Position numbers and translations under genes: made by a program
Notes under the pieces: model-generated
Databases searched by the model: none
What the model was told of the DNA's origin: nothing
The model's input: the letters and a program-made list of their open reading frames with translations, nothing else
DNA from: a virus
Strand: one strand, 5' to 3'
Length of the DNA stretch: 48,920 nt
IMG/VR virus record: IMGVR_UViG_3300036791_001712
Coordinates: 1-48,920 of that record
Part shown: positions 1 through 48,632 of the stretch, piece after piece
How positions within the stretch are numbered: position 1 is the stretch's first letter
Layout of the letters: each line of letters starts with the position of its first letter

Positions 1-202
1 CCTCTTCTGCGATCCCATCGCGCCGACAGAGAAAGGCTTCCACTAACTCGTGGATCCCGACCGCTAACTCGCTTTGCGGGGACAGCCCGTCAACTACAGA
101 AACTGTTATACTATCCCCAGCCAGTAACCAGTCCCCCGCTTGATCGTTGCGGACTTTCTCCCTGTCCCAGCGCTCAAGCCGCGCTATAGTCCTAGGTATC
201 AT
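1..202 (-). CDS. Conserved phage hypothetical protein, N-terminal part (gene split by contig ends)
   Basis: This is the 5' part of a gene broken by the linear cut of the contig. The ATG is at 202-200, just after the preceding small membrane gene. Joined through the 99-bp overlap to the piece at the right edge, it gives a 131-residue protein beginning MIPRTIARLERWDREKV. The central IHELVEAFLCRR segment and the downstream GDDERSPYFAQHQ segment resemble a hypothetical protein common beside phage terminases (recalled similarity, not searched). The function is unknown. HELVE is not a complete zinc-peptidase motif, so no enzyme call is made. It sits between TerS and TerL in the late operon. Bases 1-8 differ from the right-edge copy at two third-codon positions. 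Confidence 0.7.
   Translation of the reverse strand, partial: MIPRTIARLERWDREKVRNDQAGDWLLAGDSITVSVVDGLSPQSELAVGIHELVEAFLCRRDGIAEE
9..107 (+). repeat. Terminal direct repeat, left copy (99 bp)
   Basis: Identical over 99 bases to 48822-48920. The repeat lies inside a gene that becomes intact when the ends are joined, so it reflects a circular or circularly permuted molecule rather than a true phage end. The flanking eight bases (1-8 against 48814-48821) match at six positions. Confidence 0.97.
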
Positions 203-3372: not shown

Positions 3373-3401
3373 AGCTTAAACGGGAACGGTTCCCGTGTCA
3401 A
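3373..3401 (-). promoter_or_regulatory. Leftward promoter with a perfect palindrome as spacer
   Basis: On the minus strand, a perfect -35 TTGACA (3401-3396) is followed by a 17-bp spacer and TAAGCT (3378-3373). The first 15 bp of the spacer are the palindrome CGGGAAC-C-GTTCCCG, a likely operator where a dimeric protein would block RNA polymerase. The GTG of the MoxR gene begins 6 nt downstream, at the expected transcription start. Confidence 0.7.
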
Positions 3402-3423: not shown

Positions 3424-3472
3424 AAAATAAATGAAAATAAACATTGACCTTTCCTAGCAGCTTGGCATGGTA
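3424..3472 (+). promoter_or_regulatory. Rightward early promoter 1 with A-rich upstream element and operator
   Basis: The order is AAAATAAATGAAAATA (3424-3439), 4 nt, TTGACC (3444-3449), 17-bp spacer, then ATGGTA (3467-3472) or TGGTAT one base on. The spacer contains CCTAGCAGCTTGG, a near-match to the operator-like palindrome in promoter 2. The A-rich block is identical in sequence and spacing to that of promoter 2 and resembles an UP element. Confidence 0.65.
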
Positions 3473-3510
3473 TTAGCTTACATGTCACAGTGTGACGACA
3501 TGTAAGCTAA
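3473..3510. repeat. 38-bp inverted repeat ending on a start codon
   Basis: Perfect 14-bp arms, TTAGCTTACATGTC (3473-3486) and GACATGTAAGCTAA (3497-3510), flank a 10-bp spacer. The centre also forms the nested palindrome GTCACAGTGTGAC. The right arm's last base is the A of the ATG of the first rightward gene. It sits just after promoter 1, so it may be a strong operator, an RNA hairpin hiding the start codon, or an origin-type site. Confidence 0.85.
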
Positions 3511-3845
3511 TGACAACACGCAGCGACAAAGTTACCCGCTCCCAAATTTCCGCCGTCATGGCCGAACTCGGTCGCCGCAATGCCGGAGGCCGAAAGACGC
3601 TCACCCGCGCCGGACACTTTCAACGCATCCAAGCAGCCCGCGCCAGCGTCGCCGCCCGCGCCGCCCGAACGGGACGCCCGGATCCCCGGACATCCCCCGC
3701 ACCCCGCCGCGCCCCCGGAACCAGGGGGCTGGGGCTGGGGCTGGGGCAAGCCCAATCCAGCAACAAGCCGCTGACCGGGGGAAAGGGAAAAGCAACGGGC
3801 AAGCCCAATCCAACAACAGCACATCACCGGGACAACGGAAAATAG
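3510..3845 (+). CDS. Small basic protein with GGR motif and low-complexity tail
   Basis: This is the first rightward gene, 111 aa. The N-terminal half (SAVMAELGRRNAGGRKTLTR, then FQRIQAARASVAAR) follows a pattern seen in many small bacterial and phage proteins: helix, G-[RK]-x-GGR, helix. The second half is rich in Pro, Gly, Arg and Lys and looks disordered. The ATG at 3510 is preferred over an in-frame GTG at 3492 because the inverted repeat would otherwise be coding. No Shine-Dalgarno is visible. The next gene has a related motif, so the two may be diverged paralogues. The function is unknown; an early nucleic-acid-binding role is plausible from charge and position. Confidence 0.55.
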   Translation: MTTRSDKVTRSQISAVMAELGRRNAGGRKTLTRAGHFQRIQAARASVAARAARTGRPDPRTSPAPRRAPGTRGLGLGLGQAQSSNKPLTGGKGKATGKPNPTTAHHRDNGK

Positions 3846-3853
3846 CTCTTTTT

Positions 3854-4015
3854 ATGGCAACACAACGAAGTGACGAAACAATCCGCAAATTCCTGCGTGA
3901 GATCGGACGCAAAGGCGGACGCAAAAGCGCCCAGCACCCCAACCGGCCACAGCTTAACCGCGAAGCCGCCGTTAAACGTTGGCGCAAGGTAATTCCCCCC
4001 ATCAAAAAAGTTTAG
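3854..4015 (+). CDS. Small basic GGR/KGG-motif protein (53 aa)
   Basis: It encodes 53 residues with the core FLREIGRKGGRKSAQHPN followed by an REAAVKRWRK helix. The pattern (helix, IGxKGGxKS, polar linker, EAAxxRW) is recurrent in small hypothetical proteins of environmental bacteria and their phages; no function is established to my knowledge. It lies 8 nt after the preceding gene and shares its GGRK core. It is strongly basic and may bind nucleic acid. The A-rich upstream element of promoter 2 begins 2 nt after its stop. Confidence 0.65.
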   Translation: MATQRSDETIRKFLREIGRKGGRKSAQHPNRPQLNREAAVKRWRKVIPPIKKV

Positions 4016-4016
4016 A

Positions 4017-4065
4017 AAAATAAATGAAAATAGTTCTTTACAAATACCAAGCAGCTTGGTAATTT
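4017..4065 (+). promoter_or_regulatory. Rightward early promoter 2 with best operator copy
   Basis: AAAATAAATGAAAATA (4017-4032) is followed by 4 nt, TTTACA (4037-4042), a 17-bp spacer and TAATTT (4060-4065). The palindrome TACCAAG-CAG-CTTGGTA (7-bp arms) fills the distal spacer and reaches into the -10. The upstream element is identical to that of promoter 1. Transcription would begin near 4072, 18 nt before the next ATG. Confidence 0.7.
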
Positions 4066-4089
4066 ACCTAAACAAGAAAGAATCACCAC

Positions 4090-4311
4090 ATGATGACAAA
4101 GAAACACTTCATCAAACTGGCCGATGCGATCCGCTCGGCAAAACCGCAGTGGAAAGCTAACGGGGACGATGTCCCTGCCTTAATGCAATGGGAACATCAA
4201 GTCCGAATACTGGCCGACTTCTGTTTCGATCAGAACTCACGCTTCAATCGCACACGCTGGATTCTGTATGTGAACGGCGAATGCGGCCCGAACGGGGGGA
4301 AACTGAAATGA
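4090..4311 (+). CDS. Conserved small phage protein (73 aa)
   Basis: A short protein with HFIKLADAIR near the start, an aromatic/tryptophan-rich middle (ILADFCFDQNSRFNRTRW) and the ending NGECGPNGG. This 'FxxLAxxI...ADFCxxxNxxFxxxRW...GxCGPNGG' layout recurs in small early phage proteins (recalled, not searched), whose function is unknown. Its ATG follows AAGAAAG, a plausible ribosome site, and its stop overlaps the next start (ATGA), showing translational coupling. Confidence 0.7.
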   Translation: MMTKKHFIKLADAIRSAKPQWKANGDDVPALMQWEHQVRILADFCFDQNSRFNRTRWILYVNGECGPNGGKLK

Positions 4312-4799
4312 CCACTCTCACCAAAAACCGAATTTTAGAGAAAGGCGACCAGTTCTTTAACGGAACAGGCTGGGTGCCGATTCCAACAACTGACTTTGGC
4401 CTCCAAGTCGCATTTGCCAAATACAAGGAAATACGACGCCCTTCTGAAACGGTAAAAGATTTGCCCGCGCAGCGAACCGCCGAGGATGCAATTCACGGAG
4501 AACTGGAAGCGCCAGTCGATGCGGGTAATACCACCGCTACCACCACCACTACGTCTATTGACTCAGACGAAGCGGCAGGTTTGGACATTAAATTTCCCAA
4601 AACGAAGTTTCAGCCCGTCTGGATGGGACGTAACGGTTGCTTTAACGGTTATGCGTTATCCTGCATCCAAGTCAAGCCCGACAAAATCCTGCTTCAACCC
4701 GTCGGGAAACGAGGGGTAGGCAATTGCATGATCGAATTTCCCAAAGCCATCATCCCTCAACTGGTTGACTGGCTACTACAACAAGAACTGGAAAAATAG
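4308..4799 (+). CDS. Hypothetical early protein with Thr-rich linker
   Basis: This 163-aa protein starts at the ATG overlapping the previous TGA. An in-frame upstream ATG at 4188 is rejected because it would overlap the previous gene by over 100 nt. There are two apparent domains: an N-terminal part (FNGTGWVPIPTTDFG) and a C-terminal part (FPKTKFQPVWMGRNGCFNGY through PQLVDWLLQQ), joined by an acidic stretch and a TTATTTTTS tract encoded by ACC/ACT repeats. No known family was recognised. Confidence 0.7.
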   Translation: MTTLTKNRILEKGDQFFNGTGWVPIPTTDFGLQVAFAKYKEIRRPSETVKDLPAQRTAEDAIHGELEAPVDAGNTTATTTTTSIDSDEAAGLDIKFPKTKFQPVWMGRNGCFNGYALSCIQVKPDKILLQPVGKRGVGNCMIEFPKAIIPQLVDWLLQQELEK

Positions 4800-4810
4800 A
4801 AAGAACCCAA

Positions 4811-5098
4811 ATGACAAAAATCACCAAACCAAAACTATCACATGACGAAGAGGCTGACCGAGCACAAACCGAGAGGATCAAGGAAAATGCCCAACTCAAA
4901 AAAGAAAACCAGAGGCTAACTAATTACATCAAGGATAGCGCAGCCTATCTGCGATTCGCCTTCGGACGGGGCGACCGGGAAAGCCTGATCCTCTCCACCC
5001 TAGCCCATGACCTGAAAGGTCTAGCCAACAATGAAACCTGCTTTCTGCCACGGGTAGATGGCTACTACAAATGGGAACAGGAGCACAGGAATAAATAA
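4811..5098 (+). CDS. Coiled-coil hypothetical protein (95 aa)
   Basis: Residues about 15-45 are heptad-like and highly charged (ERIKENAQLKKENQRLTNYI), predicting a short coiled coil. The C-terminal part (FGRGDRESLILSTLAHDLKG) is helical. No enzymatic motif is present. It sits 11 nt after the previous gene with AGAAAG upstream, in the same early operon. Dimerisation is likely; the role is unknown. Confidence 0.65.
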   Translation: MTKITKPKLSHDEEADRAQTERIKENAQLKKENQRLTNYIKDSAAYLRFAFGRGDRESLILSTLAHDLKGLANNETCFLPRVDGYYKWEQEHRNK

Positions 5099-5099
5099 T

Positions 5100-5504
5100 A
5101 TGAAAAACCAAACTAAACAAAGTAACACCGAGCTAATAAACTGCCCGCGCTGTCCACGCTGGTTCGCCAGCAAAAACGCTCTTAGCATGCACATAGGCCG
5201 CGTCCATACAGGATCAATCGTGCCGGGGAAAAGACGCAGGCCAATATCACGCGAAGAAAGGATAATCAACAGACGCGAGTATAGCCGCCGCTGGAGACAA
5301 GCGCGTGGCATAACTCCAAACCCGAAAATGTGGCGGAAAGAAAATGATAAAAGAGGAGGCAGAAGGATCAAAACCCGCCGCCATCGTTTCACACCAATCG
5401 TCTTCCCAGATCCAACCAAGCAAACCCAACCTGAGCAAACCCAATCCACCCTCAACTATTGCCCTACCTGCGGCGAACACCTGAGCCAGTGGAAGAAAGA
5501 GTAA
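5100..5504 (+). CDS. C2H2 zinc-finger protein
   Basis: This 134-aa protein has a eukaryotic-type finger: C15-x2-C18-x12-H31-x4-H36, with the hydrophobic core F22 and L28 in the expected places (CPRCPRWFASKNALSMHIGR). A long Arg/Lys-rich segment follows (REERIINRREYSRRWRQARG), then a C-terminal CPTCGEHL knuckle. It is a likely DNA- or RNA-binding regulator acting in early infection. Bacterial C2H2 proteins are best known as Ros/MucR regulators, but the spacing here is closer to the classical finger. The ATG at 5100 is chosen because an earlier in-frame ATG (5058) lies inside the previous gene. Confidence 0.8.
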   Translation: MKNQTKQSNTELINCPRCPRWFASKNALSMHIGRVHTGSIVPGKRRRPISREERIINRREYSRRWRQARGITPNPKMWRKENDKRGGRRIKTRRHRFTPIVFPDPTKQTQPEQTQSTLNYCPTCGEHLSQWKKE

Positions 5505-5510
5505 CCAAAC

Positions 5511-5984
5511 ATGAAACAAAGAAAACAATATCACGGAAAATCCGGGATCAAATCACTAAAAAAGATTCACAAGTATTTCCCCAAAATAACATCGATAGAA
5601 GATGCCAGTAAGCCAGTCGTCGTAGAGGTAACTCCAAATGATGTGGCTACTTCAAATGTCAGAGACCCAGCCATGTGCGCTTTTGCCAAAGCTTGTTACA
5701 ACAAGTTTAACGCAGATGGCGTAATAATTGGACTCTCAACCTCTTACGTCATTATAGGAGAAAGAGCAATCCGCTACCGCAACACCCAAGGACTGATCCG
5801 CGAGATCGTTTCCTTTGACCGAAAAGCCGGATTTGAGGCTGGAACCTATATGATTAGCCCGCATAGTCCTGCCTCGCGGCTGGGACTTTACAAAGGGCGG
5901 GAGACTCATCCCAGAAGCAACGGAAAAGACAGGCGACAATTTAAGCATTTTACCACAAATGTGCGCGTCTTGGGGGTGGACTAA
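5511..5984 (+). CDS. Conserved early phage hypothetical protein (157 aa)
   Basis: The basic N-terminus (KQRKQYHGKSGIKSLKK) is followed by a compact mixed alpha/beta region: AFAKACYNKFNADGVIIG, then STSYVIIGERAIRYRN, IVSFDRKAGFEAG and SPASRLG. This layout recurs in small early-region phage proteins of unknown role (recalled similarity). No catalytic motif is seen. It is 6 nt after the zinc-finger gene and likely co-transcribed. Confidence 0.65.
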   Translation: MKQRKQYHGKSGIKSLKKIHKYFPKITSIEDASKPVVVEVTPNDVATSNVRDPAMCAFAKACYNKFNADGVIIGLSTSYVIIGERAIRYRNTQGLIREIVSFDRKAGFEAGTYMISPHSPASRLGLYKGRETHPRSNGKDRRQFKHFTTNVRVLGVD

Positions 5985-5988
5985 CTAT

Positions 5989-6093
5989 TTGAAAGCATTT
6001 GATACAGCGATCGCCGTGGCCCTTAGCGTGACGGTCGGGATGACGCTCTGGCTTCTCACTCTCGGAATAATCCAATGGGTGGCCAATCATTAA
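5989..6093 (+). CDS. Small membrane protein (34 aa)
   Basis: TTG at 5989 opens a 34-codon frame with one hydrophobic helix (AIAVALSVTVGMTLWLLTLG). The TTG is preceded by GGGGGTGGA about 10 nt upstream, a good ribosome site. Its stop is directly followed by the next ATG. No family is known. Confidence 0.55.
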   Translation: MKAFDTAIAVALSVTVGMTLWLLTLGIIQWVANH

Positions 6094-6213
6094 ATGAACA
6101 ACTACAAAAAGGCGAAACGTGTACTTCGATTCTGGATATACCTCTTAGCCGCAATCGGATTCTTTTCCATCGTCTATTTTCTAGCCAATGTCATTTCCCC
6201 ATTTTGCCCTTGA
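6094..6213 (+). CDS. Small membrane protein (39 aa)
   Basis: The basic start MNNYKKAKRVLRFW leads into one transmembrane helix (IYLLAAIGFFSIVYFLANVI). It abuts the preceding stop (TAAATG). Its TGA overlaps the -35 of the next promoter. The positive-inside rule predicts a cytoplasmic N-terminus. The function is unknown. Confidence 0.6.
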   Translation: MNNYKKAKRVLRFWIYLLAAIGFFSIVYFLANVISPFCP

Positions 6214-6238
6214 CAACAAATACCAACCAGCTTAGCAT
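6210..6238 (+). promoter_or_regulatory. Rightward promoter 3 with degenerate operator
   Basis: TTGACA (6210-6215), a 17-bp spacer, then TAGCAT (6233-6238). The spacer end reads TACCAACCAGCTTAGCA, aligning base for base with the operator of promoter 2 at 12 of 17 positions. The ATG at 6249 is 10 nt after the -10, so the transcript would have almost no leader. Confidence 0.65.
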
Positions 6239-6248
6239 ATTAACACCA

Positions 6249-6473
6249 ATGAATGACAAAGAACTAAAACGCAAAATCACCGAAAGGTGGAATATCCTGT
6301 CAAACCACCAAAACTTTAACCCATTTGCAGATGGGCCAAAAATCACCGTTTTCGCGCAACTGGAGTATATCCTGATTGAGGCCGGGCTACTGGCCCAACG
6401 CCGGAAACGCCTGTCTGAGCGCGCAATGCGTCATGGTGCAACGGAAACCAAAACAACAACAACCATAGAATAA
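6249..6473 (+). CDS. Hypothetical early protein (74 aa)
   Basis: A helical, charged protein (ELKRKITERWNILSNHQNF, then QLEYILIEAGLLAQRRKRLSE) ending in a TKTTTTIE tail. The ATG 10 nt after the -10 of promoter 3, without a ribosome site, suggests leaderless translation. An upstream in-frame ATG (6075) is rejected because that reading crosses the membrane gene and the promoter. No family was recognised. Confidence 0.65.
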   Translation: MNDKELKRKITERWNILSNHQNFNPFADGPKITVFAQLEYILIEAGLLAQRRKRLSERAMRHGATETKTTTTIE

Positions 6474-6992: not shown

Positions 6993-7916
6993 ATGAAACT
7001 CACCAATAAATTCTCATTACCCGAACCTTTCGTGGCGGCGGTAAGCGCCGGAGCGGATATTTACGAGCGGGGCGATGCCGAGTTTACCGCGACTGAACTA
7101 ATCCGGCCCAGCCGGATCCTCTACTACGCGCGCAAACATGACGCGGAGATGGTTGAAGATGTCTCCGACCGGGTCTGGGCCTTTCAGGGACAAACCAAGC
7201 ATATTGTTTTGGAACGCATCGCGAAAACCAATCCTGAGCGTTACCTGGTCGAACGCCGCTTTGAAACCGTCATGCCCGGAACCAGAGCTAAGATCAGCGG
7301 CCAGATTGATCTGTTCGATCGTTCGGACGGAACTTTGTATGACTGGAAAGAGACCAGTGTCTGGAAATTCATGCTGGGCGATACCAAGGAATGGGAGTGC
7401 CAAGCCAACATCAACCTTTACCTGATGCGGATAAATGACATGACTGTTAACCGGATCATCAATATCGCAATCCTCAAAGACTGGAAAGCGCGTCAGGCGC
7501 GCTACACCAAGGATGGAGACTATCCCAAGTGCGCGATCCATGTCATGCCACTCCCGGCTTGGAGTATCGGGCAAGCACAGGACTACATCAATACACGAAT
7601 AGAAAAACACCGCTCAGAAGCAGCCAGTCCCCCGGTCTGCACCAAGGAAGAACGCTGGCAGCGTAACGCCACCTTTGCCGTCATGCGTTCTGACCGCAAG
7701 CGCGCCATTTCCGGCGGGCTATGCTCAAGCCGCGATCAGGCTGAGGCGGTAATGCTCCATCACATGAAAATCGCTCCCCCCGGAGACAGTAAAAAGTTCT
7801 TTATCGAAGCGCGGCAAGCCGAGCCTGTGCGCTGTCTAGATTTTTGTCCGGTGCAGACATTTTGCGACTTCGGTATTGAAGCGGAAAAGAAATTCAAGGA
7901 AAAACATGATGGATAA
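6993..7916 (+). CDS. Cas4/RecB-like PD-(D/E)XK nuclease with probable Fe-S cluster
   Basis: A 307-aa nuclease of the family that includes phage Cas4-like exonucleases. Visible elements are H70 with E74 in the first core helix, G103-x2-D106 in ISGQIDLFD, and D117-W-K119 in LYDWKET as the (D/E)XK strand. The C-terminal Cys set C281-x3-C285-x5-C291, together with a Cys about 40 residues upstream (GGLCSS), fits the 4Fe-4S clamp of Cas4/AddB proteins. The likely role is 5'-end resection or recombination during phage DNA replication. It lies in the early operon upstream of the primase-helicase. No neighbouring CRISPR genes are present, so adaptation is not implied. Confidence 0.82.
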   Translation: MKLTNKFSLPEPFVAAVSAGADIYERGDAEFTATELIRPSRILYYARKHDAEMVEDVSDRVWAFQGQTKHIVLERIAKTNPERYLVERRFETVMPGTRAKISGQIDLFDRSDGTLYDWKETSVWKFMLGDTKEWECQANINLYLMRINDMTVNRIINIAILKDWKARQARYTKDGDYPKCAIHVMPLPAWSIGQAQDYINTRIEKHRSEAASPPVCTKEERWQRNATFAVMRSDRKRAISGGLCSSRDQAEAVMLHHMKIAPPGDSKKFFIEARQAEPVRCLDFCPVQTFCDFGIEAEKKFKEKHDG

Positions 7917-8394
7917 GAAACACATACATTGGGGATTCGCAGGATCCGATAAGAACCCCATCTACGGGGGCGGCATAAGCGGAGGAAGCGAGATTGCCGA
8001 TGATTTGCGAAACTTCCTGACATCCAAACTGCCGGAATCAATCAAGCTAAATAGTGTGCAGCGGGATCATATCTTTAGGATTCTTACTGACGCCATGAGT
8101 TTTGTCATGCGGGACAGCGTAGATCGGGAAATTATTGTTAAACCACGCCATCAGATCAGGACGCTACCTAATTCAATCTGGCCGGAAAATTCCTTGCTGC
8201 TTAGATGGGACGACCATTTGGAACGATGGACTGAAAAAGACTCCAACCGCTCGTCTTATGTGGGACATCCCTACAGTCTGTCCACGGAGGATATGCACAG
8301 ATTACTGGAGATCGAAAGAAATGGACATAATGTCCAGATTGACGGGAGAAGCCACTATGGGCCTGGACATACACTACGAGTTAAGATTACCTGA
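7906..8394 (+). CDS. Hypothetical early protein (162 aa)
   Basis: It starts at tandem ATGs (7906/7909) overlapping the end of the nuclease gene. Visible features are a Gly-rich start (IYGGGISGGSEIADDL), the helical SVQRDHIFRILTDAMSFVMR, and a C-terminal part with the YSLSTEDMHRLLEIERNGHN helix. No catalytic motif or family was recognised. Coupling to the nuclease suggests a related role in DNA metabolism, by context only. Confidence 0.6.
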   Translation: MMDKKHIHWGFAGSDKNPIYGGGISGGSEIADDLRNFLTSKLPESIKLNSVQRDHIFRILTDAMSFVMRDSVDREIIVKPRHQIRTLPNSIWPENSLLLRWDDHLERWTEKDSNRSSYVGHPYSLSTEDMHRLLEIERNGHNVQIDGRSHYGPGHTLRVKIT

Positions 8395-16539: not shown

Positions 16540-16682
16540 GAGTGCCCCTCTTTGCGTTCATTAAATGGCTCAGGGAAAAAACCCGGTCATGCCAACTCAA
16601 ATCCGTGCCACCGGTTTCGACACTGGATTCCATCCTGCGCGACAACTGGTATGAGCCGAAAAAGAAACCACCCAAAGGCTAA
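16536..16682 (+). CDS. Small basic hypothetical protein (48 aa)
   Basis: The last rightward gene, coupled by ATGA to the glycosyltransferase fusion (MRVPLFAFIKWLREKTRS ... YEPKKKPPKG). It is basic, with an amphipathic start. Its TAA overlaps the TAG of the leftward ATP-grasp gene, so the two large convergent transcripts meet with no space for a terminator. Confidence 0.6.
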   Translation: MRVPLFAFIKWLREKTRSCQLKSVPPVSTLDSILRDNWYEPKKKPPKG

Positions 16683-17986
16683 CCACCAAGTACTTTGGCA
16701 ACTTGCGCCTGGGTAGGGACAGGTTCATCGCTAAAATGGATGCCGCTCTCTTCCCCGGCCTTAATCGTATCGATGGCTTCCGAAACCCGTTCCAGGTTCA
16801 GGTCAAGCGAGTAACCAGTTACCTTTCGGCAATACGCTTTTACTTTTTTTATTGCTCCCAAAAGTGAATCATCCACCGCCACAATCGCTCCTATTTCGGG
16901 CAGCCCGACCACCTGCGGAGCAACATAAAGGGTGTCGTTCACCTGACAGATGTTGCGCAGTTTTACCCATTGTCGAACTTCCGGCTCAACATAAACAGCC
17001 TGCCAATGCTGGTCAGCCCAATGACTGTGAATCAGTATCTCGACTCCGAACTTCCCAGTTGATTGGGGAGTTACTAACTCGCCATGTGCTCCATACCAGA
17101 TTATTTCACCCCAATTTGAAAACATTTCCTGATAAAGCTCTGATGGAGGCGATCCTGCTCTACAGCACGGATCCGTCAGATACGGCTTACCGTCTTTTTG
17201 AACTCTTATTTCACTACTCCAAAATCCTCGATAATTGTAGTCAGCAAAAACCGGAGCTAGTTTTGCGTTCACCTCCTTTACCTGCTCCGGCAATTTCTCG
17301 TAAGGCCGGACAACGCCCACATAAGCCACATCTTTGATCTCGTAACCAAACATCCCCGGGTCAGGGTAGGCTCCGTCAATGGTAAACCCGTCATAGCCTA
17401 TCTCGATAGCTTCATCGATCGCATCTTCCACGATAAATTCTTTGCTTTCCTTGTAAGGGCCAAGTTTCTGCTCGATATCGTCCAGGATCGGCTCGGAAAG
17501 AAACCTGTCCTGGTGATGAAAGGTTTCAACATCACCCCGCAACAGCGAGATTTTGACGTACTTGTTCTCTGCCTCTTCCAGATACTCGCGCAGGGCGGAG
17601 AGGCCGATGATTCTTTCGACCGGTTGCACAGGGAGATGAAGATCTTTTTTTAAGAAGAGCTTGGTCTGCCAGCGCATCAGTTCCAATTCCTCGCCCTTGG
17701 CGCTGCCCCAGACCGGTTTGCCCATCTCACGCAGGGCGATCTGTAAATCCCCGTCATAAACATCGGGGAAAAAGAAAATGTCAGCTTCATCGACATGATC
17801 CCAAAAATCTGTCACCCGTTCCACTCCCTCAAGCCCTGTGCCGATCGCGTATTGCTGACTCCGGGGGAATGCGCTTTTAAAAGGAGCGTAATAAAGAACT
17901 CTGCCGAAGTACTCCGTTAATTTTAAAGCCCAAGACGCGAACAAGCCATAATCTCGAACGAAGCACGTTTTATCTTGCAGATCCAT
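16679..17986 (-). CDS. ATP-grasp fold enzyme (PurD-like)
   Basis: A 435-aa protein like the ATP-grasp proteins found at the end of phage structural operons. N-terminal half: CFVRDYGLFASWALKLTEYF, RVLYYAPFKSAFPRS and a KGEELELMRWQTK substrate/ATP region. C-terminal half: FIVEDAIDEAIEIGYDGFTI and RGFWSSEIRV...YLTDPCCRAG, where E and D residues would bind Mg-ATP. ATP-grasp enzymes join a carboxylate to an amine or thiol; the substrate here is unknown, perhaps a peptide or wall component. ATG 17986, one base after the preceding TAA with AGG upstream, is preferred. An in-frame ATG at 18073 would add 29 residues and overlap the previous gene by 86 nt. Confidence 0.72.
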   Translation of the reverse strand: MDLQDKTCFVRDYGLFASWALKLTEYFGRVLYYAPFKSAFPRSQQYAIGTGLEGVERVTDFWDHVDEADIFFFPDVYDGDLQIALREMGKPVWGSAKGEELELMRWQTKLFLKKDLHLPVQPVERIIGLSALREYLEEAENKYVKISLLRGDVETFHHQDRFLSEPILDDIEQKLGPYKESKEFIVEDAIDEAIEIGYDGFTIDGAYPDPGMFGYEIKDVAYVGVVRPYEKLPEQVKEVNAKLAPVFADYNYRGFWSSEIRVQKDGKPYLTDPCCRAGSPPSELYQEMFSNWGEIIWYGAHGELVTPQSTGKFGVEILIHSHWADQHWQAVYVEPEVRQWVKLRNICQVNDTLYVAPQVVGLPEIGAIVAVDDSLLGAIKKVKAYCRKVTGYSLDLNLERVSEAIDTIKAGEESGIHFSDEPVPTQAQVAKVLGG

Positions 17987-17987
17987 T

Positions 17988-20900
17988 TTACCTACGGCCA
18001 GTTCCTCTGGTATGAACCGATGGAACCACCCCTCTTCGCCTGACACCGAGCTGCTGTGGCCGGGGTAAGACATCAGGAACCTGCTCGCGCAGCCCGGGGA
18101 TACCCATCATTACATGTTCCTTGATCCCAGTCGGGTAACGCTTTTCCGCCGGATCAGTCATCTGAGCTATCTGTTGAACGAACATCGGGATCAAGATTGA
18201 GCGAACATGTTCGCCCAAGACATCGGCACCCTGCCGAGGGTCAAGTGATTTGGCCATCTCAACCGATTCACGGACAAAAGGTGATGAAGATAACGCAGCC
18301 CACAGGGTTTCATACAGCCCGTACCAATATCCGGCAGTCTCCTCGTCGCGCTTGCGCAGATAAGAATCTCCTATCTGCCGGATGGTGGATCCAAATTGGG
18401 GCAGGATAAGGAAAGGATTATCCTGGAGCCAGGCCGGGATAACTTTGCCGCCAAGAACAGGGACACCTTCCGGGATTCTTGTTTGGCCAAAGCCGAGTTC
18501 ACCTGGTTGCCTCTTTTGTCCTGGACGGTAAAATCCGCCAAAATATTGTGGAGCGAAAACTCCCAATGCGGTTAGAGCCAGTCCAAGGGAACCGGTTTTC
18601 AAATTGCGCATGATTAAATCGGCTTCCTTGGGTGATAAATTTTCAATCCCTTTGCCCAAGATCGTTCCCACAATTCTTCCGCCACCTGAAAACCCCCCAA
18701 AGACCCCTTCAAAGGTGCGGGCGAGGATATTGGTTGGAACTTGAACCACAGGCAATTCGGCTTTAATCCCAAAAGCAGCCGCTTTTCCATAGAATCCGCC
18801 CTGACGTTCCAGTACACCCAGAAGCATACGGTAACCTTTGCTGGCCACGTTTTTATTTTGAAAACGCCAAAAAACCGAATCTTCATAAGCCAGTTCTCCA
18901 TTGACCACATGAACCAGTGGATCAGTGATATCAACTCCATGCCGAGCAGCAAACTCGGTGCGATGGATCAGCGAGCGAACCCATTCGTTGCGCGCCAGAG
19001 GCGATTTAAGCGCGCTATGCAAAAACCCAACATAATTTTGCAGTTCAGGTGGCAATGCTTGAAAGGATCCGAAAACACTTTCAAAATCCGGTTTCTGACC
19101 CCTGATATTCTTGCCAAAATCCGAGAGTAAATTTTTCCACATCTCGCCAAAAGCTGCCGCTTCGGCACGAGTATTAAACCCGTAACCTTCCCGGGGCGCG
19201 CGTTTGGCTACTTCACTAACAATGGGGAGATGTTTGAGCACGGTTCCAGCCGCTTCCCGGGCAGGGAGTATGATGGTTCCTTCAACTGAAGCAGAGAACA
19301 GTTTGGCCAGAGAATGAAAACCGGAAATAACACTCGCTCTGCGCCATTTAATGAGAAAGTCCGGGGCTTTCTGCCACCAAGTGAGTTTATCTCGGCGCGC
19401 TTTTTCAAGTGAATCAATCCAATCGTCTTCAGCTTTTTTCGCCTCAGCTGCTTTCGCCAAGTGTTCCTTGCTAAGGGGCATGAGTGTTTCGAGTTTGCCT
19501 TTACCGGTTCGATAAGCTTCCGCCTGTTTGCCCAGATTTTCCCAGAATTGTGTCGCTTTGGGACTGTGCAGATAAGCTTGAAGCGCGTCCTGTTTTTCCT
19601 TAATTTTATCATATTCCGCTACCACATCGCCATGTTCAAGGAAGCTTAAGGGACGACCTTTCTCGATCGCCTGCTTGTCGTCGAGCATCTTTTCAAGAGT
19701 AAACTGACTCGGGGAGCTAAGCGGCACTGCCTGCTTAGCCTTCTGGCCACCTTCCCGGGCTTTGCGGATATCCTGTAATTTGTCCAGGGTCTCAGAATAC
19801 TTGACATCGTTTTCAGCAATTCTGGCCTGATCCCCGCGCTGGAAAGCGTCCCTTTGGTTAGCGGCAATCCTATCTTTTTGAGTGTTAAGCTCGTTTTCCC
19901 GTTTGTTTAAGGCCGTGTGCTCTTCAGCGGTTAAAGGCCGGGGTTTGTCTTTTTGTGTCTCAATCAGGGTATTAGCGCGCCCTAGTTCAGCTGTCCTCTC
20001 CGGTGGCAGCGGAGCGACCGGCCCAGTTGGAACAGGAGGTGGTTGCGGGCCGGTTGGGCGGCGAGGTTGCTGTGAAAGGGGATAGAGCGAAGTCGCTGCC
20101 GGAGCAGCACCTGTCTCCGGCTTTGTTACCGGCCCAGCTTGTGCCTGGCGCTGGCGTTCGGCAGCTGCCTCTTGGGCTGTTTTTACTCCAGCGGCGGGCT
20201 GGGGAGCGGCTGCTCCTGGAGGTCGCTCTGCCCCCGGGGCTGCTTCTGGTGCGCCCCTTTTCTCGGCAGCGATTTGCCCGGCAAGGATGTCTCCGATTGC
20301 CCCAGCAGCCCGATCTGGCGCTTCAGCTCGTCCAGGGCCGGTTGGTCTTTGTTGCGAAAGTCGTTCATCCGCCGGTGCATCGACTCCAGGTACACCTTCA
20401 CCAGCCCTTTTAGCTGGGCCGGGTTCCGGGCCAAGGGCTGAAGCAGACTTGAAACTTGTGGCAGCATTTTTTGTATTATAGTCTTTGAGTCGGTCATTGA
20501 TTTGGTTGATTGCGTCCCAGTGTTTTTCATAAATGTTTCCTAAGGCTTTTTCATATAATCTAGTAGGAACACCGCTTGCGACCATCCGGCTATGATTAGC
20601 GAACAGCTCTGAAGTAAATCCCGCCCCTTCTTCGCGCGCATTAGCATGAGTTAACTCATGGATGAAAGCATGTAAAGTCGCAGCTGCGGCGGCTTCCGGG
20701 CTTGTTAAAGCAGAACTGGGGAGAGCACCCGGGTTAAACCAGACAGCCTTGAACGGGTTCATCATGTTCAGGCCAGCATAATCTTTATCGAAAGAAATCC
20801 CGCCGAACCATCCGCCCGGATCCGTTCGTTTGTAGTCTTGGTAGTCGGGGATCTTTCCAAACTCCCGCATGAAACCGGTCAGGGCATTGCCCAGCTTAGC

Positions 20901-23900
20901 CAGTAACTCCGGTGCGCCTTTAATATCAGTGTATTTAACATTGGTATTGTTATGCAGCCAGGGCTTGGTCGGATCCATCTGGGTGACATCAAGCTTGGTT
21001 TTTTCGTAATCTACTTCCTTTTCCGCTTTAAAAGTTGATGTCTCGGGTTTAACATATTTCTCCCTGGAAACTACCTCTGTCCTTCCACCTTTATAGTGTA
21101 AGACTACATCCCTGTCCCCCATCTCTACTCTAGTGATTTTTTCGGGGGTATAAGGTTTAACTTCCTGTTTAGCAGAAATGGATTCACGGACTTTGGCCAG
21201 ATCGGCAGGAGAGAGATCCTTAGTCGGATCCACCGATGGCAGCTGTTGGAGATTTTTGAAGGTGTCCTGTGCTTTTACAAGCTGTTGCTCGGTCGCTTTC
21301 CGTCGCAGGAACGATTTCATCGCTTCCACATCGGCCTTTCTTTTGCCCCTGAAATCCTCTCTCTGCATATTTATTGGATAATCAGGGTGCTTAGGTTTTA
21401 CCTTTGAACGAACATCGAGAACAACATCATGGGGAAACTTGGGGTCGCCATAGCCGCCATATATTTGGCCTGCATGGATAGTGAATTGATAGAGGCCAGA
21501 AGACAGAACATGGGTTCTCGGATAATCCGCGTTCTTGGGATCGACATACATCTCAACATCACCCCATTTGAAGTGAAAGGTGTTGTCTTTGTGCCAATCT
21601 TTCTGGGTTGCACCCAGATGATCCATAAACTGTCCGTTCACACGGATCCTGACCGGGCCAATCAATGGGCTTCGATCATAGACACTGTCGGAAAAAAATG
21701 GGATAGATCCAGGATAAGACAAAAAGTTGATCTGCTGCTCCTCGCCATCGGGGTCAATGTAACTTTTGGGGATTTTAATTTTAACCGTTGTCCCATTGGG
21801 TTCCGAAGTGCGAGTGCCTATTATCTTGAAACGTCCAGTGGCAATGTTCTGTCCTGTGTCATCAATAACAGATTTGATTCCATTTTTAACGGTTTCCACA
21901 TGAACTGTCTCTGAACCCTCAAAAAAGCTCATTTTGGCCAGCCCGTTACCGCCGGAACTGTCTTCAGGACGAGTTGGCTTGAAAGTTCCACCTATCTTGA
22001 AGAGGGCTTCTTTAATGACATTACGATCCATGCCTGTCCCGCTGTCTTTAACCGTGATTTCCCGTGTCTTTGGATCATTTGTAATGTCGATAATTCCGGG
22101 ATGTTCATTAGTCACCCCGGCAGCCTTGTAAGCGTCAAAGGCATTTTGAACCAGCTCTTTTATAGCCACTTGCTGGATTGGCTTTTCATACATGTCCTTG
22201 CTATGAAGCGCCGCCATTTGAGGCTTATCTACCCCCATCTCAATTTCTTCCTCACCGATTCCATCCTCGTCCATTGTGGATGACACTGTTTTAGCGCCCT
22301 CTTCGGACATGTTTTCAAGTTCCCGGTCAAGCACCTCGGGTGGTTTCTCTGTCCCCGGGGCAAAAGGAGCAGCTGCCTGAGTGGCTTCCCTGCGCCTGAA
22401 ACCAAAGAGACGGGATGGAGCTTGCTCGGCTTCGCCTGCCATAGGTTGTTGGTTTATTCGCGTTTCGTTTTCGGCCAAACCCGGCGTAATCGCGCTTTGT
22501 CGTTCACCTGTGTCGGCGTTTACGCGCTCAAAACGTGTTCCCTGTCCGACAACTTGCTCTTGGTGCGCGTTAAACGCTTTGCGAGCAGCGGCTCGCTCTG
22601 GCGTATGCGGCGCGGTAGCGAAGTAGGCGTCCTGTAATTCGCCAGCTTTTCGCCACCACCCCTCGGCTTCCGGCGTTTGGTAAATGTAAACAGGAGCCTT
22701 TGGCGCTCTTTCAGGCGTCAGATAAGAGGGTTCTTCCATCGCTTGGCCGCGCGCTTCCATCCCCCAAAGTTTTCTGGTAGGTGAACGCAACCGCGAATCA
22801 AGCATGTCAGCCAGGTGCCCGGGGTCATTTACGTCAAACCCTTTTGCTCGCAGTCCCATGACAATCCTATCGTCATCGGGAGCGTCTTTCCGGAAGAGAT
22901 CACCATAGTTGAGTTTCTCGCCGCTCACCGCTTTGGCAAACTTACCTTGCGTGAACTTGGAGGATTTTTGGAACGCTTCCCCTAGATCCTTAAAGTGAGG
23001 TGAGTCAGGATTGATTCCGCCAAGCTCTTTAATGGCAGGAAGCAACTCTTGCCCACCGCGTTCCTGGTACTCCTGCGCTCCAGCGGTCAGCTCCGCTTCA
23101 TGTTCAGCCCTGAGCCGCGCTTCCTCGGCGCGGATTCTCCGGTTCAGTTCGACTGGAGCCAGTTGTCCCCGCCGGTTGTAATCAGCGGCCTGTGCGTGCA
23201 ACCGTTCAAGCTCGGTGGCGATGTCCGGTGCCCTTACTTCTTCAGCGGTTTTTTCTGCTACTGTTTCTCCCGCTTCAGCTGCTAGTTTCTTAAAGAAGTC
23301 ATTATCCAGATTGCTTTTGGCTTGCTGGGCAGCTTCAAGATCGCCCCGGATAGTGACAGGTTCGACACTCTTGGTGCGCCGATCAAAAATGCCGTAAGCG
23401 CCACGACTGCCCTGGATAAAATACGGGCTTGGCGGTCTCTCTACCGCCGGTTCATATGCTCGCTCCGGTGGCGCGCCAGCCACGGATGGGCGGGTGGAAA
23501 CGGGTTCTTGTGGTACTTCCCTCCCTGGCTCTCTTCTTTGCGTTTCTCTGAGAGCATAATCGCGATCGCCTGGCTGCGGGACTTCACCTTGGGGCCGTGC
23601 TTCGACCCCGAGTGGAGTTTCCCTTCCTTGAATTTGTGTAGTACTTGGCTCGACGGCATATGGTTTTACTCCTGGTATTTCTCTTGTTGCGGTTGGTGCT
23701 TCTATTGAAACTGGTGCTGCAAGGGGCGGCGCGGGGATCTCTGTCCCGGCGTGCCTGCTTTTTATCCATTCCTCATAATTTCTTGCCGCTCCTGGCGCAC
23801 CTGGAACTCCACCTGGCGCTCCACCTGGAGGTGGCACACCTGGTGGCGCAGCACCTGGAGCAGCACCTCCGGGCTTAGCAGCGGGTAATTTGGCAGCAGC

Positions 23901-24783: not shown

Positions 24784-25848
24784 TCAAGGATTTTCTCTCA
24801 GGTATTTTTCAGCCGCTGCTTTGGCTACTGGGCTGGCACCGGGATCTTCCCGGAGTCGTTGTGCCTGTTCCTTCAGGTTCTTTGCTTTGGTAGCGTACAC
24901 GCCAACGGATGGGTCATCTACCTTGGATGCGATTAGACTCCGATCCTTAAATGTGTCTTGATATAGTTTCCTGGCCTTGGTGATTTCGGCCAGGGTCACG
25001 GCCTTCTGGACTGGTCGCCCAGCAGCATCGACTGAGCTAACTAATTTTTTGCCGCTCGGTGTTGTGCTGGGGGATGTCCACTGCCACCAATGAGCACCGG
25101 TAGCGACTCTTTCATCAGGAAGACTTTTTGGGTCGTCCAGGAACGAAAAATCCGTAATTCCAGCGTTACCAAAGAGGGTTGCCCCAATATTCTTGCGGGT
25201 CGAGTCTTCCAGCCTCTCTTGTATCCTGGATTCTCGATCAGAATCGGCGTTACTGCTCTCAAGATGAAGCTTCCACTGTCTGTCGTGTTCGGCGGAAGGC
25301 AATTTTTTTAAGGCAGGGCCAGCACGTTTAATCCATTCACTTTGGTAGGTGACTGTGCCCTTTTTAAGACCCTCAGCTTCCAGTTCAGCGTCCAACGTGG
25401 CCAGATCACCCTGGGCATTTATCAGGTCTTCATATTTTTGATAACGCAGATCAGAGTTAGCTTTATCAGTTTCAGCTCTTTCTTTTTGAATATCTATTTT
25501 TGCCTGCTGATCCCGCATCGTGGCGTCTTTTACAGTGCTATCCAGGTCAAACTTTCGCAAGGCCAGATCATACATCTGATCCTGATGCGCCTTCGCGTTT
25601 TGATTCATCATCTCGCGCAGGGCGAAACCTTTCTCTTTTAGATCATCCGAAAGTTCCAGTTGTCGGTTGCGCTCGGCCAAGGCTTGCATTTTACCTTCTA
25701 TCTCGCTCTTTTTCAGTCTAAGCTGGGTCGCCATGCTCCATGCGTTCAAGAACTTGTCGGCTGGATTTCCCAGGGCAATGTTCTTGTAAGGGATCTCAGC
25801 TCCGATCCGTTGTTGAGCTTCTAATGCGCCACCGCCACCGTTTGCCAT
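24784..25848 (-). CDS. Coiled-coil internal virion protein candidate
   Basis: 354 aa. Residues about 40-170 are almost wholly charged helix (KKSEIEGKMQALAERNRQLE; IDIQKERAETDKANSDL), giving a long coiled coil. The start is Gly-rich. It lies between a Gly/Ala-rich virion protein and the polyvalent protein, the position of podovirus ejection proteins, which often form helical conduits through the cell envelope. No enzymatic motif is seen. The assignment is from position and composition. Confidence 0.6.
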   Translation of the reverse strand: MANGGGGALEAQQRIGAEIPYKNIALGNPADKFLNAWSMATQLRLKKSEIEGKMQALAERNRQLELSDDLKEKGFALREMMNQNAKAHQDQMYDLALRKFDLDSTVKDATMRDQQAKIDIQKERAETDKANSDLRYQKYEDLINAQGDLATLDAELEAEGLKKGTVTYQSEWIKRAGPALKKLPSAEHDRQWKLHLESSNADSDRESRIQERLEDSTRKNIGATLFGNAGITDFSFLDDPKSLPDERVATGAHWWQWTSPSTTPSGKKLVSSVDAAGRPVQKAVTLAEITKARKLYQDTFKDRSLIASKVDDPSVGVYATKAKNLKEQAQRLREDPGASPVAKAAAEKYLRENP

Positions 25849-25852
25849 AAAG

Positions 25853-26863
25853 TTAGTATCCTCCTATGTTAAAAGGATCTGTGTTAGTCCCGGTAAAAGC
25901 TGTTGTCCCGCTATAATCAAGTGGTTGAGCGTAAGTAACTGGAGCGGTTCCGCCATAGCCGCCATAGCTCTGCGGGAGACCATATTGGCCATAACTCTGT
26001 GGAGCACCTACGTTAAAAGGTGTCTGAGGATAAGCTTGTGGGCCAGCAAGTGAAGCGCCTATTGCCGCCGTGCCGCTGGGTGCAGCTGTCCATTGAGCAC
26101 CGGCGCTATAGTCAGGTTGCTGGCCCGCATACTGGCTTGGACTGTAACTGGGAGCTGTCCCGCCTGCACCGCCACCTTTTCCAGCACCCAGATACGCGCC
26201 CAGCAAATTGATAATGGTATCGCTCACGCCCTTGGCGACCGGGCTGGGAGCAGCCGCCAGGTTATTAGCCAGCTGCTGAGTCGCCTGCCGGTAAAGGTTG
26301 TTTTGCATGGTTTGGGCGGCCTGTTCCTGCGGGCTAATAAAGAAGGCAGCCGGGTTCATAATGTTGCGAGCAGCCAGCCCGCTCCACTGTTGCGCTGCGT
26401 TCCCGGCCTGGCCCTGCAAATTGGCACCCGCCCCGATCAAATCGAGAGAAGTTAGCCCCAGGTTACGCGCCAAGTTTGCGCTTGCCATCTGGCTACCTGA
26501 TGTCCCGGAAAGGAGCGACTGATAAGCTGAGCTGCGCTGCACCTGGTCAACCACATCCTGGGGAATCTGCCCCGCCAGTTCCTGGCCAGCAACACTTTCC
26601 ATCTTAGCAGTGAGTGTGCCGCCTTCTTTTAAGATATCGGCAAACCCGGGGATGGCGCGCTCCATTGCCCCGGACATATAATCGTAATACTGGGTGCCCA
26701 GGGCCGAGATCTTGGGCATCGCAGCCAAATTTTCGGTGAGCGCCTTTAATTGTTCATCGGAAAAAATTGTCGGGGTGTATGGGGCAACCGCCGGTTTAGC
26801 CCCAAACACATCGGAAAGAATCGGGATGTCCTCAGTTTGGTATCCTGTAACTCCGTTTGACAT
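25853..26863 (-). CDS. Gly/Ala/Gln-rich internal virion protein candidate
   Basis: 336 aa. An N-terminal helical part (PKISALGTQYYDYMSGAMER, QIPQDVVDQVQRSSAYQ), an amphipathic Ala-rich middle (NLARNLGLTSLDLIGAGANL; SDTIINLLGAYLGAG) and a C-terminal low-complexity tail of Tyr/Gly/Gln/Pro repeats (SYGQYGLPQSYGGYGG). Amphipathic Ala-rich helices and placement suggest a protein packaged in the capsid and ejected with DNA. There is no family certainty. Confidence 0.58.
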   Translation of the reverse strand: MSNGVTGYQTEDIPILSDVFGAKPAVAPYTPTIFSDEQLKALTENLAAMPKISALGTQYYDYMSGAMERAIPGFADILKEGGTLTAKMESVAGQELAGQIPQDVVDQVQRSSAYQSLLSGTSGSQMASANLARNLGLTSLDLIGAGANLQGQAGNAAQQWSGLAARNIMNPAAFFISPQEQAAQTMQNNLYRQATQQLANNLAAAPSPVAKGVSDTIINLLGAYLGAGKGGGAGGTAPSYSPSQYAGQQPDYSAGAQWTAAPSGTAAIGASLAGPQAYPQTPFNVGAPQSYGQYGLPQSYGGYGGTAPVTYAQPLDYSGTTAFTGTNTDPFNIGGY

Positions 26864-31164: not shown

Positions 31165-32552
31165 AAAATCCTCGGCCCAAATCCGTATGGCGCACCGCCC
31201 AGACCTCCAAGAACAGATAGATCAGTCGTGCTGACTCCGCCTTCCAATCCGCCGTATAAACCGCTTGATGCTGTTCCAAAGGCAGTGGTGCCGCCATAAC
31301 CAAACGTGTTCCCTCCGGCAGCGTAATAGTTGGATCCAGATCCAAGATTGGACGGACTCTGAACAGGTTGGAATGAGGTCAGAGGAGTTTGCCCGCTATA
31401 AGGCGAGGCACCGGTTACATCGGAAACCGGAAGAGCCGGAAGCGCCGGGACATCGCTTGTCGTTGGAGTTGGAGCCGTTGCCTGAGTCGGGGATGGTGTT
31501 CCAGGTATGGTATCAATAAAGTTCCAGTTGGCGTCGTAAACATAGGTGCTCCCGCCCGGCCCGGGAGAATAATTGTAACCCCCAAGTGGAGCTGAACCAA
31601 TAGGCCCACCACCACCAACTTCAACAGAAGGAACCTGTCCTGGATCGGTCATGCCAAGTGCGCCGCCGGGGACATTTGATGCCATGAGCGCGCTCGGAGG
31701 AAGATTGGACAGGTCGGGTGTAGCCATTGAGAGAGGCGGCATCTCAATCCCCGGGGTAAATCCTCCCGCCCCTCCGGTATCAGGCGGCGGAGGAAGATCG
31801 CTTCCAAAGGGAATCGAAGTATCAAACCCTAATCCCTGTGGAGCAGTTGTCGGATCATAGCCTAGGGAGAGGGCACTAGGCTGAAAGGGAGTGTTTCCAT
31901 ACAAAAAAGGGTTAATATCGCCGGTCGCAAGCGGCGTCTGAGGAGTGGCAACGGTTCCGGCTGGGTAAAGCGGCTGGTTAACAATCCCCGGTGTAACCGG
32001 GCCGGTCACATACCCCGGGGAAAACTGGACATTGGGCTGATTGATCTGGGCCGAGTTCATCATCTGCCGATTCGCGGTAGCGATATCGATTTGCGTTCCG
32101 CCCTGGATCCCCGGGGCAGCCCCCGTGTCGCGGAAACTGAACTGTTGCTGTGGGAATTGCGGGCTGATTAAAGGCGTGCCGTAAGGATAGAGATTGCGCT
32201 GACCAGCAACGGTAGCAAACGGAGCATTGGGATCGCCAAAAGCCTGGATCGGTTGTTGCCGCATATCTACCGGCCCACCGCCTATGCGCGGGTCAACACC
32301 GGGCACTCCACTGTAACCTGTCGTCCTGACATTTATCGGTTGTCCCGATCGGGCGGTAGCAGTCTGTGCAGCGGCTGTTTGCTGGATACGCCGAAGATCC
32401 TGGCCAGCAGGCGGTGGTGGAAGTGCTCTTCGGGATGGCACACCCGGAGGAAGCGCCCTTCGCGTTGGAACTTGCCCAGCGGGAAGTGCCCTTCGGGCAG
32501 CCGGACTACTACCCTGTCTTCGCCAAAATTCCTGATTCCAAGGGGCTGGCAT
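31161..32552 (-). CDS. Pro/Gly-rich low-complexity virion protein
   Basis: 463 aa, mostly disordered: an N-terminal triplicated RRALPxGx motif (residues about 19-48), then long Gly/Pro/Thr/Tyr tracts. The composition is like flexible virion linkers or decoration proteins. It overlaps the next gene by 4 nt. No domain was recognised. Confidence 0.6.
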   Translation of the reverse strand: MPAPWNQEFWRRQGSSPAARRALPAGQVPTRRALPPGVPSRRALPPPPAGQDLRRIQQTAAAQTATARSGQPINVRTTGYSGVPGVDPRIGGGPVDMRQQPIQAFGDPNAPFATVAGQRNLYPYGTPLISPQFPQQQFSFRDTGAAPGIQGGTQIDIATANRQMMNSAQINQPNVQFSPGYVTGPVTPGIVNQPLYPAGTVATPQTPLATGDINPFLYGNTPFQPSALSLGYDPTTAPQGLGFDTSIPFGSDLPPPPDTGGAGGFTPGIEMPPLSMATPDLSNLPPSALMASNVPGGALGMTDPGQVPSVEVGGGGPIGSAPLGGYNYSPGPGGSTYVYDANWNFIDTIPGTPSPTQATAPTPTTSDVPALPALPVSDVTGASPYSGQTPLTSFQPVQSPSNLGSGSNYYAAGGNTFGYGGTTAFGTASSGLYGGLEGGVSTTDLSVLGGLGGAPYGFGPRIL

Positions 32553-46984: not shown

Positions 46985-48632
46985 ATTCGACGGCGATCTT
47001 GCGCTTTTCCAGGAATCGTTTCCACGGGGAATCGGTTGTTTTCTGGGTATGGGAAACGCTTCGTGGGGACAGCCCGCAGCGGGCCGCGGCGCAGCGGGCG
47101 GTTACAACAACCGCATCAGCCAGATCGGGGCTACGCCGGGTGCGATCTTTCATTTTGGCTTTTGTTTCCAGGGCGATTAAGCTTCCGCGCATCGACCACC
47201 ACCTTCGGCAGAACTCGGTTGCGCTTTGTTGATCCAACCCTTTAATTTGGCCGTTAAGAAGAAGGAGGCGAAAGAAAAACCATAGCTCGGTTACGGCCCG
47301 GTCATATTCCTGGTTAGCCGCTTTAGAGTTAGTGGCCGACACGGGATTTTTGCTGGCTTGGCCGCCAAATTCGACGCAGAGAATTTCCCGGCTCCATTCC
47401 TGTTGGAAAATACTAGCCAAGCCGCCGCCTTCGCCGGTCGAGTCCAGGGCGAAGTAGTATGGAGCGACTTCGCGCCGCTCACATTCGGCCTGTGCCTGGC
47501 GCACAATCTGGTAATGGATCGGGTCATCGGTGGCAATTTTGGTGCGCAAGAAAAGGGTTTCACCAAGGAGGAGAGTCTTTTTGCCTTCGACATCGCCGAC
47601 TCTGCCAAAGCGCAGCACACAACGATCTTCTCCTTCAAAAGCCGGATCCAGACCCGCTACCGCGACAGAGCTTTGGTCAAAGGAAGCGCTCCCAAAAGCT
47701 TCCGAGCGGATAATCATCGGCATGGAAAGGACGGTTTTAAGTAGTCCTTCGGGTGCCCAGAACCCACGGCGCATCTGCCAGAACTGCGGGCTATCGACCG
47801 AGTAAACGGTAGCGGTAGTATCGATGTCACTTTGGTTAAGCAGCCCCGGATAAGACTTGGTTTTGTCTAGCACATTGGGACTTCGCAGTCCGTCCAGGTG
47901 AACGCACACGCCCCGGCGCGTTTCCCACGACTCGCTTTCGACATCGATTGATTCCCAGCCAGCGGCTGGTTCGCACATCCGCCCGTGGGGATCCAAATGG
48001 TCATCGGCGTTACCCAGTCCTTTAAACTCAAAACGGGTGGAGCCGCTTTCCAAATTGACGCACGCTTCCACGATGGCTTCGGGCGTGTAAGGCATCTCGT
48101 CCACGAAAACTAACATTTTTTTGGCGTGAAAGCCGATTATTTTCCCGATCGCTTTATCTATCTCCCCTTTATCGGTAGCTAAGCCAAAGACCCCTGCGTC
48201 ATCGTGGCCTTTGCTATATTGAATGGCGTTGCGACTTTGCACCATGTGGCCGTAGAGAGGCCGGAGCCGGTGGAAGCGGGTGATCTCTTTCCAGATCCGG
48301 CGGCGCAACCCGTCCAAAGTCGTACTGGTGCAGATAACAACCGTGTTACGCGGATCAGCATAAAAGCTGCAAAGCGCATAAATAGCCGCGCTAGTTGTCT
48401 TCCAGGAAGCGGCAGGGCCAGTTACGGTGCACCATTTGTGCTCGGCAAAGGAGCGGATAAGTAGCTCGCTCCAATCGTTCCAGATAAAGCTTTCCGGGAA
48501 AGGCCGGTTCCAGATTAGGTCAATCGCGTTACGCAGATGGACAAAACGCCCCGGACTCAGAGGCGCACCTTGGGAAAAGCAGTACAACTCAATCGCCTGC
48601 CGGTCAGCCGTCGGAAACTTTAGTCCATACAT
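46962..48632 (-). CDS. Terminase large subunit
   Basis: 556 aa, the packaging motor. ATPase domain: Walker A GPAASWKT (72-79), Walker B MLVFVDE (173-179) with E179 as catalytic residue. Nuclease domain (RNase H-like): acidic residues in AGLDPAFEGEDR (about 328-340), ALDSTGEGGG (about 415) and RRSPDLADAV (about 510). It translocates DNA into the prohead through the portal and cuts the concatemer. The ATG at 48632 overlaps the preceding gene by 13 nt. Cut type (cos, pac or direct repeats) cannot be told from this sequence. Confidence 0.93.
   Translation of the reverse strand: MYGLKFPTADRQAIELYCFSQGAPLSPGRFVHLRNAIDLIWNRPFPESFIWNDWSELLIRSFAEHKWCTVTGPAASWKTTSAAIYALCSFYADPRNTVVICTSTTLDGLRRRIWKEITRFHRLRPLYGHMVQSRNAIQYSKGHDDAGVFGLATDKGEIDKAIGKIIGFHAKKMLVFVDEMPYTPEAIVEACVNLESGSTRFEFKGLGNADDHLDPHGRMCEPAAGWESIDVESESWETRRGVCVHLDGLRSPNVLDKTKSYPGLLNQSDIDTTATVYSVDSPQFWQMRRGFWAPEGLLKTVLSMPMIIRSEAFGSASFDQSSVAVAGLDPAFEGEDRCVLRFGRVGDVEGKKTLLLGETLFLRTKIATDDPIHYQIVRQAQAECERREVAPYYFALDSTGEGGGLASIFQQEWSREILCVEFGGQASKNPVSATNSKAANQEYDRAVTELWFFFRLLLLNGQIKGLDQQSATEFCRRWWSMRGSLIALETKAKMKDRTRRSPDLADAVVVTARCAAARCGLSPRSVSHTQKTTDSPWKRFLEKRKIAVEYANPLSY

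Follow-up and report, generated by a model that had tools for sequence, protein, structure and literature searches.

Early promoters of the window and their shared palindrome

The DNA analysed here (the window) is a virus record of 48,920 bases from IMG/VR, whose early region matched none of 50,697 phage records at the DNA level. One gene of the related contig L004 is present in two pieces at the ends of the window (1-202 and 48620-48856), and stretches of its first 100 bases are found again within it, apparently close to the right end. The record is thus probably a complete, circularly joined genome.

The early region contains three 17-bp palindromic sites on the plus strand, all in promoter-like DNA upstream of small early genes. 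We refer to them as putative operators O1, O2 and O3, located in promoters P1, P2 and P3, respectively. O2 (4045-4061) is the perfect palindrome TACCAAGCAGCTTGGTA, in which TACCAAG and CTTGGTA flank a central CAG; O1 (3451-3467; TTCCTAGCAGCTTGGCA) and O3 (6221-6237; TACCAACCAGCTTAGCA) each carry three mismatches to it. With up to three mismatches to TACCAAGCAGCTTGGTA allowed, the 48.9 kb contain these three sites and no others, compared with 0.04 expected from shuffles. A weight matrix built from the clade described below likewise finds no score of at least 10 in the remaining 45 kb of the window, outside the early region. The shared palindrome noted in the first-pass annotation is therefore real, and a chance or coding origin of the sites is rejected.

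P1 consists of a TTGACC −35 element (3444-3449, plus strand) and a CATGGT −10 element (3466-3471; spacer 16), with TGGTAT at 3468-3473 as an alternative −10 (spacer 18). This −10 is a weak hexamer, which reads CATAGT at the same palindrome position in L004. The first gene of the P1 unit encodes a basic GRR-motif protein (3510-3845, plus strand) and the second the 53-aa KGG protein (3854-4015, plus strand). The P1 leader also contains a 14-bp inverted repeat (TTAGCTTACATGTC/GACATGTAAGCTAA; 3473-3510) that extends to the A of the ATG and folds as RNA with −21.6 kcal/mol (z −4.1); L004 retains only its inner part, GTCACAGTGTGAC. P2 combines TTTACA (4037-4042) and TAATTT (4060-4065) with a spacer of 17 on the plus strand, and its first gene belongs to the TKKHF family (PHROG 34049; 4090-4311, plus strand). 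In P3, also on the plus strand, the −35 is TTGACA (6210-6215) and the −10, TAGCAT (6233-6238; spacer 17), lies within the right arm of O3; the first gene (74 aa; 6249-6473, plus strand) has its ATG 10 nt 3′ of the −10. P1 and P2 further share an identical 16-bp A-rich UP-like element, AAAATAAATGAAAATA (3424-3439 and 4017-4032, plus strand), exactly 4 nt 5′ of the −35, as first described. This element is not strictly kept in L004, where it is a general A-rich UP-like tract.

A consensus promoter scanner reported only P3 among the three promoters, and its promoter-like matches in the early promoter region of the window were at shuffle level (3 versus 2.9). P1 and P2 are thus poor consensus promoters, and the case for promoter function rests on conservation in relatives.

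Conservation and symmetry of the palindrome in related viruses

Related contigs (L004, L005, L035-L042, and L124) were recovered with exonuclease, KGG, and SSB-like queries. In nine non-redundant clade members (the window and eight others), the operator occurs three to six times per genome. A symmetric weight matrix, whose training seed included some of the sites later counted but not those of L124, L165, and the lineages outside the clade, scored 42 positions in the nine genomes at 9 or higher and 39 at 12 or higher, compared with 3.2 (mean) and 1.1, respectively, in shuffles. The operator is also present in the promoter of the leftward AAA/VWA or zinc-ribbon genes in L036, L041, L042, L124, and L165. 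The leftward AAA/VWA operon promoter of the window (TTGACA-17-TAAGCT, minus strand) has a different palindrome in its spacer (ACGGGAACGGTTCCCGT; 3380-3396), and L004 is similar.

The curated set comprises 39 promoter-linked sites in the nine genomes, 37 of them distinct, and yields the symmetric consensus TNC(C/G)AAsCNGsTTGGNA (by position: T 95%, N, C 97%, C/G, A 92%, A 86%, G/C, C 92%, N, G 92%, C/G, T 81%, T 92%, G/A/C, G 97%, N, A 100%). Base preferences agree between the two half-sites, among them C/G at position 4 and S at position 7, as should be seen if the site is bound by a homodimer. Within-site covariation was not significant over the 37 distinct sites (block permutation p 0.11); apparent examples of compensation, such as TACGAACCAGCTTCGTA, are thus no proof alone, and it is conservation and the symmetry of the consensus that carry the case. 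Symmetry without covariation points to the DNA site of a dimer rather than to an RNA hairpin. The first-pass annotation had proposed a regulon of sites of graded quality and suggested a motif search of the genome and its relatives. This search found the palindrome conserved, and its conservation, symmetry, and variable promoter phase strongly support such a regulon.

Variable position relative to the −35 and −10 elements

The same annotation placed the palindrome always at the same position between the −35 and −10, which proved to be wrong. The −35 is separated from the palindrome by 1 nt in P1, 2 nt in P2, and 5 nt in P3, and the first base of the −10 is palindrome position 16 in P1 and P2 but position 13 in P3. 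The right arm of O3 departs from TTGGTA because its TTAGCAT contains the −10 of P3. Across all operator promoters, the best-scoring −10 hexamers start at palindrome position 4, 13, 16, 18, 19, 22, or 23, and spacers are 16-18 nt at nearly all of them. The KGG gene promoters of L005, L036, L037, L039, L041, L042, and L124 stand out most clearly as a class of their own (assigned by eye for L037 and L039, where the automatic scorer chose other hexamers). In this class, a TTGACA-like −35 (TTGACT in L037, TTGCAA in L039) precedes the palindrome by 13-14 nt, and the −10, of the GAASCT type, occupies palindrome positions 4-9.

Operator sequence yields to promoter sequence wherever the −10 falls within the palindrome. 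In the KGG-promoter class, the centre base doubles as the last −10 base and is T in 7/7 sites, versus 5/30 in the other sites (Fisher p 8e-5), while the TAGNAT class has A at position 14; the comparison is partly circular, as each class is defined by its own −10. A core-promoter element would not shift against the promoter while keeping its sequence, and such a shift is difficult to reconcile with activation over a fixed spacer. Occlusion of RNA polymerase is the simplest reading of the variable phase. An ATG follows 5-12 nt after the predicted −10 in some 32 of 40 operator promoters (those of L004, L005, L036-L042, L124, and L165, plus P3 of the window), and leaderless or near-leaderless early mRNAs are thus predicted.

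Operator promoters in lineages with other early genes

Scanning viral contigs with a promoter-plus-operator pattern returned clade members, coding-region matches, and L161 (genome G003). Other exact 17-mer matches in viral contigs were inspected and showed no promoter-like context. G003 is a 59-kb virus with three operator promoters (16101, 24839, and 25522), in all of which the palindrome can be read as the entire 17-nt spacer (at 24839, the automatic scorer picked other hexamers). The operator is also found in two early promoters of G007 and in one each of G018 and G019. The half-site CCAAG is thus kept at early promoters in three virus lineages: the clade, G003/G007, and G018/G019.

On the minus strand, the window encodes a 464-aa protein (16679-18073) that has neither a Pfam match nor a match in isolate phages and looks ATP-grasp-like, as read from conserved motifs. 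Late genes link the window to the outside lineages: this protein is shared with G003, G007, G018, and G019 at about 40-43%, and the terminase with G003 and G018 at 25-26%. Many relatives in the ATP-grasp family lack the operator, which is thus not universal. Profile searches in the four outside genomes found no convincing relative of the KGG, TKKHF, g4188, g4811, C2H2, SSB-like, exonuclease, or g8421 proteins, nor of the primase, AAA, VWA, or zinc-ribbon proteins. Homology of the second P2 gene (4188-4799) to the gene at the best operator of G003 was unsupported (hhalign probability 0.2).

One operator unit of G003 contains a DUF3293/S-adenosylmethionine-lyase-type gene (24833-25321; Pfam scan, G003 copy only), and look-alikes are present in the operator units of G007 (31543-31971) and G018 (7748-8215). 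Such a gene is possibly anti-restriction, and early counter-defence expression would fit. G018 (21158-21286) and G019 (25747-25875) encode the same 42-aa protein, which contains two GRKGGR motifs and resembles the KGG proteins of the clade in this motif only.

A putative homodimeric repressor and its possible identity

Taken as regulatory DNA, the palindromes are probably operators of one homodimer that represses early promoters and would most likely itself be a phage-encoded early product. We infer from the sites that a homodimeric DNA-binding protein would occupy the operators within sigma-70-type early promoters, occlude RNA polymerase, and thereby repress the early genes. Its CCAAG-type half-sites have their centres about one helical turn apart and would be contacted on the same DNA face. 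The differences between the sites, with a perfect O2 and weaker O1 and O3, may determine how strongly, or in which order, the promoters are shut off. If the protein is an early product of the phage, it would exert negative feedback on early transcription in a Cro-like role. A phage-encoded reader is favoured because the sites occur only in phage early units and cover the KGG start in 7/9 genomes, and operators that are confined to early units and present in several copies per genome suit early shut-off. On these grounds, feedback by a phage-encoded repressor is rated somewhat above repression by a host protein, as a matter of judgement and not of demonstration.

A host-encoded repressor, exploited by or acting on phages, is a possible though less probable reader; it could be, for example, a stress/SOS-type regulator coupling early transcription to the state of the host. 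Three lineages with unrelated early gene sets carry the same CCAAG half-site, for which a shared cellular reader would be a simple explanation. However, the strict promoter-plus-operator pattern gave only 13 matches across 84,980 species of bacteria and archaea, all within open reading frames and against a chance estimate of about 9, in a search whose collections may lack the host and which misses degenerate or differently placed sites. The phyla of G020 and G021, sampled with 149 and 101 genomes, respectively, showed no enrichment either. Host searches with the exonuclease in bacterial genomes, with KGG in plasmids, and through isolate phages gave no usable host, and a literature search for the motif strings gave no match. 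More tentatively, the operator may have been kept while the lineages replaced all their detectable early genes, its reader being either a repressor whose fold has not been linked to specific DNA binding before (the two-helix KGG protein or a small protein that escaped recognition, for example) or a host protein.

Pfam and PHROGs scans detected no CI/Cro-type or other HTH repressor among the early proteins, in agreement with the first-pass annotation, although a very diverged one could escape such scans. The C2H2 protein (5058-5504) or a GGR/KGG protein had been proposed as the binder instead. The clade-wide presence of KGG speaks for this proposal, but searches of the operator-bearing outside lineages found homologues of neither family, which leaves both as weak candidates. 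It is unlikely, although conceivable, that the small KGG protein (3854-4015 and orthologues) is itself the repressor and is autoregulated at its own promoter. Its orthologues occur in every clade member examined, its relatives among 2.9 million viral contigs are confined to clade contigs, and the operator lies over its own −10 and start in 7/9 genomes. The protein is basic, and its AlphaFold model has two helices (pLDDT 76, pTM 0.34). Being clade-wide and basic, with the operator over its own start, KGG is the best candidate within the clade. On the other hand, G003 and G007 lack a homologue, G018 and G019 have only the unrelated-looking 42-aa KGG-motif protein, the model matches no solved fold, and other early families are equally clade-wide. 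Among these, the TKKHF protein is modelled with three helices (pLDDT 85) and has no significant PDB match. The C2H2, TKKHF, SSB-like, and exonuclease families, although present throughout the clade, were rejected as binders, since HMM searches did not find them in G003, G007, G018, or G019, as was the leftward zinc-ribbon protein, which has no match in the window or L004.

It is very improbable that the palindrome is no repressor operator but a promoter element or an activator site with MerR-type spacer remodelling. Most sites do fall at least partly within the spacer, and the right-arm GGTA often supplies a TG and the start of the −10. However, MerR-type promoters typically have spacers of 19-20 nt, compared with the 16-18 nt seen here, and the −10 starts at seven different palindrome positions; this variable phase disfavours both a core-promoter element and a MerR-type activator and favours steric repression. 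Moreover, we know of no role of a left-arm CCAA in sigma-70 recognition. That the palindrome acts as an RNA hairpin in transcripts is barely credible, for although O2 as RNA could fold into a 7-bp stem, its z-score is only −1.4, the 37 distinct sites show no covariation, and the palindrome lies 5′ of the expected start in most promoters.

Significance and comparison with known systems

The sites delineate an early regulon for phages of a group without an isolate match in our searches, and provide an exact 17-bp bait for pulling down the regulator as well as a marker of early promoters in such contigs. As the operator persists amid changing early genes, the identity of its reader would distinguish an unrecognised family of phage repressors from host control.

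The palindrome represents a new operator family within a type of regulatory system that is already known. The lambda CI/Cro operators at PR/PRM and PL are odd-length 17-bp pseudo-palindromes of graded quality that overlap the −35 and −10 of early promoters, and the sites described here are likewise symmetric, graded, 17 bp long, and placed over early promoters. In contrast to the clustered, cooperative triplets of lambda, each promoter has a single operator, no recognisable CI/Cro or other HTH protein is encoded beside it, and no integrase or lysogeny module was noticed among the proteins scanned. MerR-family operators share the location of a palindrome between the −35 and −10, whereas the spacers here are of normal length and the palindrome has a variable phase and no fixed place. 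The stoperators of mycobacteriophage L5 are short asymmetric sites scattered over the genome and read by one repressor. The palindromes resemble them as one short site that is repeated in a phage genome and predicted to have a single reader, but differ in being symmetric and confined to early promoters.
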